The notes under the pieces: model-generated | What the model was told of the DNA's origin: nothing | The model's database searches: none | What the model saw: the letters and a program-made list of their open reading frames with translations, nothing else | DNA from: Modestobacter sp. VKM Ac-2977 | Lineage (GTDB): Bacteria; Actinomycetota; Actinomycetes; Mycobacteriales; Geodermatophilaceae | Direction of reading: 5' to 3' | Assembly (NCBI RefSeq): GCF_026968045.1 | Contig: NZ_JAPVBQ010000001.1 | Span: 509,238 to 573,237, forward strand | Length of the DNA: 64,000 nucleotides | Shown: positions 56,869 through 60,092 of the stretch, in pieces | How the letters are laid out: each line of letters starts with the position of its first letter | Position numbering within the stretch: position 1 is the stretch's first letter | Program-made: the position numbers and the translations under genes

Positions 56869-58218
56869 CTACGAGTCAGCGGGTGCGGTCCAGTCGATCC
56901 GGTCGGCCAGGCGGTGCAGCCGGGCGCCGAACGCCGGGTCGACCGAGGCGGCCCAGGCCACCCGGCCCAGCACGTGGTCGCGGAAGGTGCCGGGGTCGCG
57001 GCCCCGGGTCTGCGTCGTCCAGCCGTGGACGGCGCAGTTGTGCAGCAGCGCCCGCAGCGCGTCCCGCTCCGGCCTGGGCAGCGTGGGGTGGTCGTTGACC
57101 ACGGTGCCCAGCACCGCCTGCCGGCGGGCGGCGCTGGTGGCCGAGGTCTTCGCCGCGTTCACCCGGAAGCCCTCCTCGGTCACCACATCGGTGACCAGGT
57201 CGGCGAACCGGTCGCGGGCGATCCGCCGGTCCCCGCTGAAGGTCAGGTCGTCGACGTACCGGGTGTACGTGCCACCGGAGGCGGCGGCGAGGCCGGCCAG
57301 TCGGCGGTCGAGGCGGTGGCAGACCAGGTTGGCCAGCGCCGGGGACGTCGGTGCCCCCTGCGGCAGGTGCGGCACCGTCAGCCGCTGCTCCAGGCGCCGG
57401 TGCCGCTCCCGCGCCTCGATGCCGTCCGGGGGCGGGATGCGCCGCCACACCTCGGTCGGCAGCACCGTCGTCATCAGGCCGGTGAGCACGTGGGCCACCG
57501 GCTCGGGCAACCCGGCGACGCCGAGCAGCAGGCCGTGCACCCGACCGGCGGCGACGCTGGCGAAGAACGCCTCCAGGTCCATCCGCAGCACGACCGCGGA
57601 CCCGGCGTGCGGGGCGACCGCGGTGCGCACGGAGCGGCCGGGCACGCAGCCGTGGGCGGCGTCGTGCACCGGGACGCGGTCGAGCACGTGCCGCAGCAGT
57701 CGCCGCTGCGCCTCCTTGAGCCGCGGCTTGGGCGCGGCGAGCAGCCGGACCCCGGCCGGGCGCTGGACCACCCGCCACCGGTAGTGCCGCAGCGCCTCGC
57801 CGGCCGTGCGCTCCAGCCGGCGGGCGTCGGCGAACCAGGCCAGCTCGCCGGCGTCGACGTCGAGCAGCCGGGCGACCGCTGCCTGGTCGGGGAGGTCGGC
57901 GACCGGCCGCCGGCGCCGGGCCAGCTCGGTCGGCACCGGCTCCCACCGCACGGGCCGGGGGAGCGGGCGCCGGGACCGCCCGCGTTCCCACCCCCGCGTC
58001 GTCCGGACGACGGCGGCCAGCTCCCGCGGCCGGTCGACCGGGGCGGTGGGGTAGACCGTCTGCACCTCGCCGACCAGCGTGCCCACCCAGGTGCGGGCGC
58101 GGGCCTGGCCCAGTGCCACCGCCACCCGGCGGACCATCTCCCGCCGTCGCCACGGGCCGGCCAGCAGCGCGGTCGCGATCGCTGCGGCGGTGACGGCGGC
58201 CTGCCGCTCGGCGGTCAT
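56869..58218 (-). CDS. Retron-type reverse transcriptase
   Basis: A 449-aa RNA-directed DNA polymerase. RT motifs in order: RPAGVRLLAAPKPRLKEAQR (153-172), DAAHGCVPGRSVRTAVAPH (186-204, place of the retron NAxxH box), LRMDLEAFFASV (211-222, first catalytic Asp), LPQGAPTSPALANLV (285-299), TRYVDDLTFSGDR (319-331, YxDD with two catalytic Asp), EEGFRVNAAKTS (348-359) and RQAVLGTVVN (366-375, place of the retron VTG box). The order and the LPQGAPTSP and YTRYVDD forms are those of retron RTs, not group II introns; there is no maturase or endonuclease domain. About 100 basic N-terminal residues are extra. A structured region with inverted repeats lies just upstream. Confidence 0.92.
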   Translation of the reverse strand: MTAERQAAVTAAAIATALLAGPWRRREMVRRVAVALGQARARTWVGTLVGEVQTVYPTAPVDRPRELAAVVRTTRGWERGRSRRPLPRPVRWEPVPTELARRRRPVADLPDQAAVARLLDVDAGELAWFADARRLERTAGEALRHYRWRVVQRPAGVRLLAAPKPRLKEAQRRLLRHVLDRVPVHDAAHGCVPGRSVRTAVAPHAGSAVVLRMDLEAFFASVAAGRVHGLLLGVAGLPEPVAHVLTGLMTTVLPTEVWRRIPPPDGIEARERHRRLEQRLTVPHLPQGAPTSPALANLVCHRLDRRLAGLAAASGGTYTRYVDDLTFSGDRRIARDRFADLVTDVVTEEGFRVNAAKTSATSAARRQAVLGTVVNDHPTLPRPERDALRALLHNCAVHGWTTQTRGRDPGTFRDHVLGRVAWAASVDPAFGARLHRLADRIDWTAPADS

Positions 58219-58231
58219 CGCAGCTCCCGGA

Positions 58232-58392
58232 GTGCACGGCGGGGCGGGCAGCCGCTCCTCGCTGGAGGCGCCGCCTGGTGCGCGGAGCGCACAGCGCGGC
58301 TCATGACGCGATGCCCGACCTGCTCACGATGCCCCGGGGTTGCCCCGGGGTGATCGGCGGTTGCCGATCGTCCTGCCCGCCCCGTCGTACAC
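58232..58392 (-). ncRNA. Candidate retron msr-msd RNA with a1/a2 repeats
   Basis: On the minus strand, GTGTACGACGGGGCGGGC (58392-58375, a1) can pair with GCCCGCCCCGCCGTGCAC (58249-58232, a2): 16 Watson-Crick pairs, one G-U and one mismatch. Between them are a 7-bp hairpin (GATCGGC/GCCGATC, loop AACC), a CCCCGGGG/CCCCGGGG hairpin with a 3-base CAA loop, and a longer msd-like hairpin at 58270-58300 (5 bp, 3x3 internal loop, 6 bp, loop TCC). The end of a2 is 13 bases from the reverse transcriptase start. This is the layout of retron ncRNAs. The branching G and exact ends are not determined. Confidence 0.65.
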
Positions 58393-58502
58393 CCGGCCAC
58401 CGTAGTGGTGTGCGGACCGCCGCCGGAGTCAGGTGCGGGACAGCCGGCCGCGGGATGCACCAGGATGGGCCCCCGTCGTCCCCGACCCCCTGGAGTGCCG
58501 CC

Positions 58503-59123
58503 GTGACCTCTTCGCCCTCCGGCCAGCCGCCGGCCCCGATGGCCGTGCCGGCCTTCTTCGTCTCGCAGCGGGTCACCATGATGGTCAACCGCTACGAGAT
58601 CCGGGCCGCTGCCCCCGACGGCTCCGAGGGGCAGTTGCTGGCGCTGGCCGAGCAGAAGCGGATGAAGCTGAAGGAGGAGGTGGTCTTCTTCGCCGACGAG
58701 ACGAAGAGCCGCGCGGTCTTCTCCTTCAAGGCCCGCCAGCGGATGGACGTCTCGGCCCAGCACGACGTCTTCGACGAGCACGGTGCACCGCTGGGCATGT
58801 TCAGCAAGCAGTTCGGGGCCAGCCTGCTCCGCTCGACGTGGAACCTGGAGGTGCCGGGGCTCTCCGCCCGGGGGCAGGAGCGCCGCCCGGCGATCGCCGT
58901 CCTGCGCCGGGTCTGGGACCTGGTCCCCATCGTCGGTGACGTACCGGTGCCCTTCGTCTTCCACTTCGACTTCGTCGACACCGCGACCGGCGCCCCGGTG
59001 CTCACCAGCGAGCGGAAGAAGTCCGTCCGCGACCGCTACACCGTCACGGTGCCGGACCCGCGGCTGGACTTCCGGGTCGCCGCCGCGATGGCCGTCGCCC
59101 TGGACGCGCTGCAGAGCCGCTGA
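58503..59123 (+). CDS. LURP-one/scramblase-like protein
   Basis: A 206-aa protein predicted to form the twelve-stranded barrel of the LURP-one/Tubby-like family: FFVSQRVTMMVNRYEIRAA, ALAEQKRMKLKEEVVFFADE, VFSFKARQRMDVSAQHDVFD, GMFSKQFGASLLRSTWNLEV and a final VPDPRLDFRVAAAMAVALDA helix. Bacterial members are uncharacterised; related folds bind membranes or lipids. The GTG start 58503 has GGAG eight bases upstream. It is divergent from the reverse transcriptase; its promoter must lie beside the candidate retron RNA. Confidence 0.8.
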   Translation: MTSSPSGQPPAPMAVPAFFVSQRVTMMVNRYEIRAAAPDGSEGQLLALAEQKRMKLKEEVVFFADETKSRAVFSFKARQRMDVSAQHDVFDEHGAPLGMFSKQFGASLLRSTWNLEVPGLSARGQERRPAIAVLRRVWDLVPIVGDVPVPFVFHFDFVDTATGAPVLTSERKKSVRDRYTVTVPDPRLDFRVAAAMAVALDALQSR

Positions 59124-59135
59124 GCCGGGCGGGCG

Positions 59136-59540
59136 CTACAGGTAGCGGCTCTCCAGCTCCGCGAAGAACGCCTTCGCCAGCGCGGTGAAGTCGGCCTCCC
59201 GGACGGCGATCTCGTCGCCCACCCGGTAGTGGAGCACGGTGCGACCCGGGTCGAGCCTGATCTGCTTGTCGGCGATCATCGTGCGGCCGTGCACCAGCGA
59301 CCCGGCGATCAGCCGCACCTCGTTCAGCGCGTTGCCGTCTGCGCCCTCGATGCCCCGGCCGCGGTGCACGAACCAGTTCTCCAGCACCACGACCAGGTCG
59401 TTGAAGAAGACCGGTTCGAACTCCCGCAGGGCAGCCGGCTCGGTGGCGGCGGCCAGGGCCCGGTAGGCGTCGAGGCGGTCGTCGACCGCCGCACGCCGTC
59501 CGTCGATGTAGTCCAGTGCGTACGTGCTCTGACACAACAC
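59136..59540 (-). CDS. Conserved hypothetical protein
   Basis: A 134-aa protein starting [20 protein letters not shown] from GTG 59540, five bases after GAGGAG. The conserved-looking middle is [20 protein letters not shown] followed by [20 protein letters not shown] and [20 protein letters not shown]. It is mostly helical, without signal peptide. Similar proteins are widespread in actinobacteria; the function is unknown. Confidence 0.8.
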
Positions 59541-59640: not shown

Positions 59641-59970
59641 TCAGGCCCAGCTGGAGTCGGGCTGCAGGCTGCGGGGGACCGGCAGCGGGGGGAGCGGGGT
59701 CGGTGTCCGTCGGGGCTGCCCGCGGCCGGGGAGCTGCAGGTCCGGCCGGGTCCGCGGCTCGGGGGCCGCTCGGTCCGGCCGGGGGAGGCGCAGGTCGGCC
59801 AGGTGCACCCAGCTGGCGCGGCGCAGCCCGCCGACGACGGCCTGGACGCGTACCCAGCAGGTGCCGTCGGGCTCGTGCGCCCAGCCGAGCAGGACGGCGG
59901 GGCGCCAGTCGTCGTCGATCAGGAACTCCACCGGCAGTGGCTCGCCCAGCAGCGACGTCATCTCCTGCAC
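59641..59970 (-). CDS. Hypothetical protein
   Basis: A 109-aa protein starting VQEMTSLLGEPLPVEFLIDD. The first 70 residues look like a small beta barrel (WRPAVLLGWAHEPDGTCWVR, VQAVVGGLRRASWVHLADLR), and the tail is Pro/Arg-rich. The GTG at 59970 was chosen because TAAAGT lies 7 bases upstream, consistent with a leaderless mRNA; a GTG at 60000 is possible. It is divergent from the luciferase-family gene. Confidence 0.6.
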   Translation of the reverse strand: MQEMTSLLGEPLPVEFLIDDDWRPAVLLGWAHEPDGTCWVRVQAVVGGLRRASWVHLADLRLPRPDRAAPEPRTRPDLQLPGRGQPRRTPTPLPPLPVPRSLQPDSSWA

Positions 59971-60092
59971 GAGCGCGACTTTAGGTGCGCGGGCGATCAC
60001 TGAGCGGCAGGCGCGCGTGCGCCGCCCCGGCCGGGAAGGGCGCCGGGGCGCCGTGCGTTGTCCCGGACAACCAACGCGAAAGGCTCTTCCCC

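Follow-up and report, generated by a model that had tools for sequence, protein, structure and literature searches.

A Modestobacter reverse transcriptase gene preceded by a covarying RNA that is very likely a retron template

The window analyzed here, a 64,000-nt stretch of the genome of Modestobacter sp. VKM Ac-2977, encodes on its minus strand a retron-type reverse transcriptase (RT) and, immediately 5′ of this gene, a structured RNA. A first-pass annotation of the DNA had proposed that an 18-nt inverted repeat enclosing three hairpins ends 13 nt before the RT start codon, and had read the whole as the RNA template of a retron. The repeat was found with the coordinates and strand claimed, pairing 58375-58392 with 58232-58249 through 16 Watson-Crick pairs, one G-U pair and one A-C mismatch, and the closing helix was found to extend two pairs further inward, giving 20-nt arms (a1 and a2). 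The RNA stretch is 161 nt in length (58392 down to 58232, minus strand) and folds into a closed structure in which a1 and a2 surround the three hairpins P1, P2, and P3, the longer of which is built around TGCGC-TCC-GCGCA, with weaker pairing between them. The gap between a2 and the RT ATG is exactly 13 nt (58219-58231), and RNA and RT lie on the same strand. A structured, a1/a2-closed RNA directly upstream of a same-strand RT is the arrangement by which a retron is recognized, and from the sequence comparisons described below we consider the folded RNA very likely to be a retron template.

The RNA strand folds with an energy of -106.2 kcal/mol compared with a mean of -80.3 kcal/mol for 200 dinucleotide shuffles (z -6.04; 0/200 as good); the plus strand with flanks, opposite to the RNA strand, reached a z of only -3.75. 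A repeat of such quality is present at one place in the window (in three overlapping registers), yet 9 of 20 Markov-simulated 64-kb windows were found to hold at least one as good. Thus, in DNA so GC-rich, the inverted repeat is not decisive by itself; what is decisive for an RNA role is its placement and covariation, as established by comparison among loci.

This comparison was based on (i) an alignment of 44 upstream regions that was fitted to no structure (A2); (ii) a covariance model (R1), built after A2 and run on the window plus 98 of 110 loci at E <= 0.01; and (iii) a model-fitted alignment (A3), which leans towards its own structure. The a1/a2 boundaries were taken from a local pairing search that overshoots in places, with one seed (L019) trimmed by hand; duplex folding was unusable for these limits as it extended the arms into flanking DNA, and MAFFT on the trimmed RNAs misaligned a1 under two of three settings, such that A2 was kept instead. 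R1 matched 95 of the 99 sources once each, including 51 of the 55 loci outside the seed. The RNA was therefore kept at 94 of the 98 homologous RT loci, the comparison that the first-pass annotation had proposed as its own test, and the helices displayed compensatory changes. The RNA end was located -60 to +130 nt from the extrapolated first RT residue in 86/94 loci, and in some loci the RNA overlaps the first RT codons. At the level of genomes, RT sequence was detected in 42 of 97 related genomes, and R1 matched 37 of the 94 that were searched whole, in a single place each and always next to RT sequence. RT sequence without the RNA was present in four of the genomes: three (G002, G034, and G049) hold short RT pieces only, and in the fourth (G040) the sole RT match is weak (E 3.9e-4) and possibly to a different RT. 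When 296 genomes of the phylum were searched with stricter filters and few candidates scored per genome, the RNA was found in three and the RT (E <= 1e-60) in the same three, two of which are independent and the third of which is the window's own genome. Neither the 94 related whole genomes nor these 296 yielded an orphan copy of the RNA. The best 80 of 438 relatives in an RT scan of named genomes were distributed over Actinomycetota, Acidobacteriota, Planctomycetota, Verrucomicrobiota, Myxococcota, and Pseudomonadota; several are metagenome bins whose phylum labels may err. By these matches, the RNA family appears to be spread over several phyla.

Changes on both sides of a pair that keep the pairing were counted in 317 cells of A2, compared with 131 after shuffling and at most 176 when pairing partners were slid; in A3 the count was 917, compared with 289 shuffled and 294 slid. 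Three inner pairs of the closing helix were out of register by a column (37% of cells paired) and were counted anyway, which lowers these scores. As a control that preserves relatedness, every column pair (12,171) was ranked by corrected mutual information. In A3, all of the ten highest-ranked pairs and 27 of the first 30 were structure pairs; with the 51 held-out rows alone, the ten highest were again all structure pairs, as were 25 of the first 30. P2 was mostly invariant.

We also examined how the RNA could serve as an msr-msd transcript. A TANNNT box, a motif picked after the alignment was seen, was present 4-22 nt before the RNA match in 83/94 loci compared with 17/655 control windows further upstream; its position suggests that transcription starts at a1 from a putative promoter. 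In validated retrons, the priming guanosine lies within the inner end of a1 or immediately follows it, in contexts such as TAGC, CAGC, GAGC, CAGA, and ACGC (as described in part of PMC6868368). The window RNA has a G after a1 in the context CAGGAC, which could be used as primer and whose column is conserved to the extent given in Table 1; a rougher, separate estimate of the boundaries placed a G after a1 in 76/96 loci. The base preceding a2 is conserved as well. On this reading, the RT would bind the msr hairpins P1 and P2, the 2′-OH of the guanosine at 58372 would serve as primer, and the RT would copy the RNA from 58252 back through P3 and halt in the linker. The distance from P2 to a2 is 80 nt, and the product would be a branched RNA-DNA molecule with DNA of at most about 80 nt. 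We infer from this the production of multicopy single-stranded DNA (msDNA) and, more tentatively and by analogy with other retrons, phage defense of the cell. Overall, co-occurrence with the RT, compensatory changes in excess of both the shuffled and the slid controls, and an RT that is retron-like in sequence and fold bear out the proposal of a retron template, and we hold with high confidence that the locus is a complete retron of two recognizable parts, a promoter-led msr-msd RNA and an RT.

Table 1. Features of the putative retron in the window (all on the minus strand)
Feature	Position	Strand	Observation
Retron-type RT, 449 aa	56869..58218	-	Only RVT_1 match found in the genome
N-terminal helical domain of RT, residues 3-83, five helices	57970..58212	-	AlphaFold models
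Catalytic box YVDD, residues 321-324	57247..57258	-	YADD in 49/59 RTs, YVDD in 10/59
-10-like promoter box TACGGT	58399..58404	-	Six nt before a1; window sequence
a1 arm of closing helix, RNA 5′ end	58373..58392	-	Outer helix covaries: both-side changes in 14/14 pairs (A3)
Predicted priming (branch) guanosine right after a1	58372	-	G in 73/94 rows; putative priming role by comparison with known retrons (PMC6868368, in part)
Hairpin P1 (msr), GATCGGC-AACC-GCCGATC	58352..58369	-	Both-side changes in 7/7 pairs
Hairpin P2 (msr), CCCCGGGG-CAA-CCCCGGGG, most conserved element	58332..58350	-	99.7% of cells paired; both-side changes in 5/8 pairs
P2-P3 linker, self-paired in window fold, probable 3′ limit of RT-DNA	58301..58331	-	No family-structure pair
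Hairpin P3 (predicted msd)	58270..58300	-	Both-side changes in 12/13 pairs (helices 5 and 6)
Template tail; 58252 = predicted first templated base	58252..58269	-	G at 58252 (base preceding a2) in 91/94 rows
a2 arm of closing helix, RNA 3′ end	58232..58251	-	Pairing and covariation

The RT was found to be of the retron type, as first annotated: it belongs to the retron clade, is retron-like in both sequence and fold, and has an intact catalytic box. The rows of the fold comparison span residues 102-449 and are uninformative on the N-terminus. For the N-terminal domain, no credible match was found in Pfam, PDB sequences, or Foldseek; the best PDB sequence match, a circular tendon repeat protein (E 1.4e-6), was rejected as it covered 36 positions with no stretch passing alone. 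Four of five Amycolatopsis loci (L047, L049, L055, and L071) encode RTs of 334-341 aa that are without this domain, starting 5-32 nt after an RNA that is kept; the domain is therefore usual, not universal. In the tree, the RT family formed one group apart from six other Myxococcus/Archangium RTs (support 0.893, with those six as outgroup). Assignment to a group II intron RT or to a defense-associated RT (DRT) was tried and rejected, with NCBIfam equivalog scores below cut-off (group_II_RT_mat 44.1/300 bits, Drt2 37.5/390, and Drt3a 29.3/200).

Several observations weigh against a retron. Region Y of the window RT reads VLG, where VTG is typical, and VTG was present in 15 of the 59 RTs compared. 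When A2 was ranked by mutual information, nine of the ten highest-ranked pairs belonged to the structure, but only 13 of the first 30 did (15 within two columns), which we put down to misaligned arms. R1 did not match 4 of the 55 non-seed loci: in L075 the upstream side is missing from the locus, and in L090, L098, and L104 relaxing the threshold to E <= 10 still gave no match upstream of the RT. When open frames of at least 90 aa were clustered around 87 loci and the top 25 clusters examined, no neighboring gene family was found to track the RT across genera. Lastly, region X, the position of the NAXXH motif, reads AVAPH in the window RT; the His is invariant, and the Asn is present in only 2/59 RTs. 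According to part of PMC6868368, NAXXH is present in 14 of 16 validated retron RTs, the exceptions being Ec48 and Mx65, which differ at the Asn; the motif is thus not strictly required.

The missing Asn is also what a DRT-like defense RT could explain, for which the RNA would template DNA without 2′-OH priming at the a1/a2 junction, e.g., through protein-primed or repeat-making synthesis. There is precedent for each element, in that DRT2 binds a neighboring structured RNA, part of which it copies (PMC12039810, in part), and protein-primed DRTs exist (PMC12483538 and PMC12632851, both in part). We regard this explanation as unlikely, though the most serious of the three that we weighed. It is more improbable still that the RNA acts in cis on the RT mRNA, as a regulatory leader or attenuator, and is no template at all. 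Such a function would fit a structure that lies between a promoter-like box and the RT gene, as part of the 5′ leader; however, the RNA accompanies the RT family across several phyla, no orphan copies were found in the genomes searched, a long covarying a1/a2 helix closes the structure, a G follows a1, and the G preceding a2 is conserved. Least credible, to the point that we give it almost no weight, is that the inverted repeat arose by chance or belongs to a mobile element and plays no part as RNA. The simulated windows described above speak for it, but compensatory changes, co-occurrence with the RT, and the fold z score contradict it.

Taking the locus as a retron, we examined what its effector may be. 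Neighbor clusters with members in up to nine genera were judged unspecific on account of scattered distances, occurrence on both strands, or overlap of the RT 3′ end on the opposite strand. In six Amycolatopsis/Crossiella loci (L047, L055, L062, L063, L071, and L092), the RT is directly followed by a same-strand pentapeptide-repeat gene, which overlaps it by 4 nt in L062 and L092 and is confined to loci of these two genera; all three of the encoded proteins tested matched Pfam PF00805. This gene is a possible lineage-specific partner in Amycolatopsis/Crossiella. As no conserved partner gene was identified, the effector may be encoded elsewhere, may vary among lineages, or may reside in the RT itself as its N-terminal helical domain. 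We tentatively raise the possibility, to which we would assign less than even odds, of an old and widespread retron class that consists of RNA and RT only, with an undescribed RNA family and no dedicated toxin gene; in such a class, the effector would be the small N-terminal helical RT domain itself or something recruited by it, or the function would be other than toxin-based abortive infection.

Relationships to known retrons were assessed with the PADLOC models, which scored the window RT at 541.7 bits for RT_other (PDLC02949), 509.2 for RT_outgroup (PDLC03740), and 286.1 for RT_XIII. The likeness to the first two is a near full-length match that includes the N-terminal part (for RT_outgroup, E 2e-153, with RT residues 9-443 on model positions 6-407 of 407), and all six relatives scanned were likewise best matched to RT_other followed by RT_outgroup; both entries are protein models only. 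The nearest typed group for the RT core is retron type XIII, or myxobacterial Mx162-like (E 1e-85). Of the other RTs in the Myxococcus and Archangium genomes, four (L112-L115), including two (L113 and L114) that we take to be Mx162-like retrons, were best matched to RT_XIII and are outside the window RT family in the tree. R1 matched beside the family members in these genomes (L116 and L118) and nothing credible was found beside the other nine RT loci, with no match beside L112-L115 at E <= 1. By sequence, therefore, the RT group is placed nearest to type XIII among typed retrons and is not part of that type. Mx162 also has an extended N-terminus, as does the window RT (PMC6868368, in part). 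The Ec86 (Eco1) RT aligns from its residue 11 onto window RT residues 102-445 and thus is without a counterpart of the N-terminal domain. The hairpin set of Ec86 also differs from that of the window RNA. Furthermore, Ec86 has a defined effector (7v9x, in part).

The first-pass annotation had called the RNA undescribed-looking. At gathering score, Rfam 15 gave no match in the window and only a tRNA in 11 related loci; at lax thresholds, the window region gave only two chance matches on the plus strand (E 5.2 and 6.8) and L054 none. The description is thus accurate for the RNA as far as Rfam 15 reaches and is not for the RT group, which is already in PADLOC as RT_other/RT_outgroup. PADLOC has retron RNA models of its own (PMC9252829, in part). 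No paper on a Modestobacter retron or on this RNA was found in a literature search, the coverage of which did not extend to retron surveys with RNA predictions. What is new beyond the first reading is the reach across phyla, the covarying consensus, the absence from Rfam, and the missing effector. Through these results, a large RT group to which a defense database assigns no type gains an RNA template whose primer and template ends are predicted, and msDNA production by the RT_other/RT_outgroup group becomes directly testable. GC-rich actinobacterial retrons are also possible DNA-writing tools for high-GC hosts, and the results raise the question of how a retron can function when no effector is linked to it.

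Within Modestobacter, one full-length RT match was detected in 14 of 23 genomes, a broken or partial one in three (G001, G002, and G003), and none in six, four of which are only 67-72% complete. The decayed copies include an RT split into two overlapping pieces in G001 (L135), the RNA beside a broken RT in G003 (L139), and short RT remnants only in G002 (L138). The genes at 59136-59540 (-), 59641-60000 (-), and 58503-59123 (+) recur in related genomes and had no Pfam match at E 0.01; the protein of the last is presumably 'scramblase-like'. The region 56869-59123 was compared with loci L001-L013, L132, L135-L138, L140, and L141, and the retron was found on either side of the 58503-59123 gene; in the mapped loci, retron and gene are antisense to each other. 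The retron is positioned 5′ of the gene in G000, G005, G009, G014, G017, and G021, as well as in G001 with about 3.7 kb between, and 3′ of the gene in G006, G007, G008, G010, G011, G013, and G020, with a remnant in G002; in G018 the locus is without the retron, which is elsewhere in the genome. The two positions could be explained by the retron having moved locally, by a duplication followed by differential loss, or by two separate insertions.
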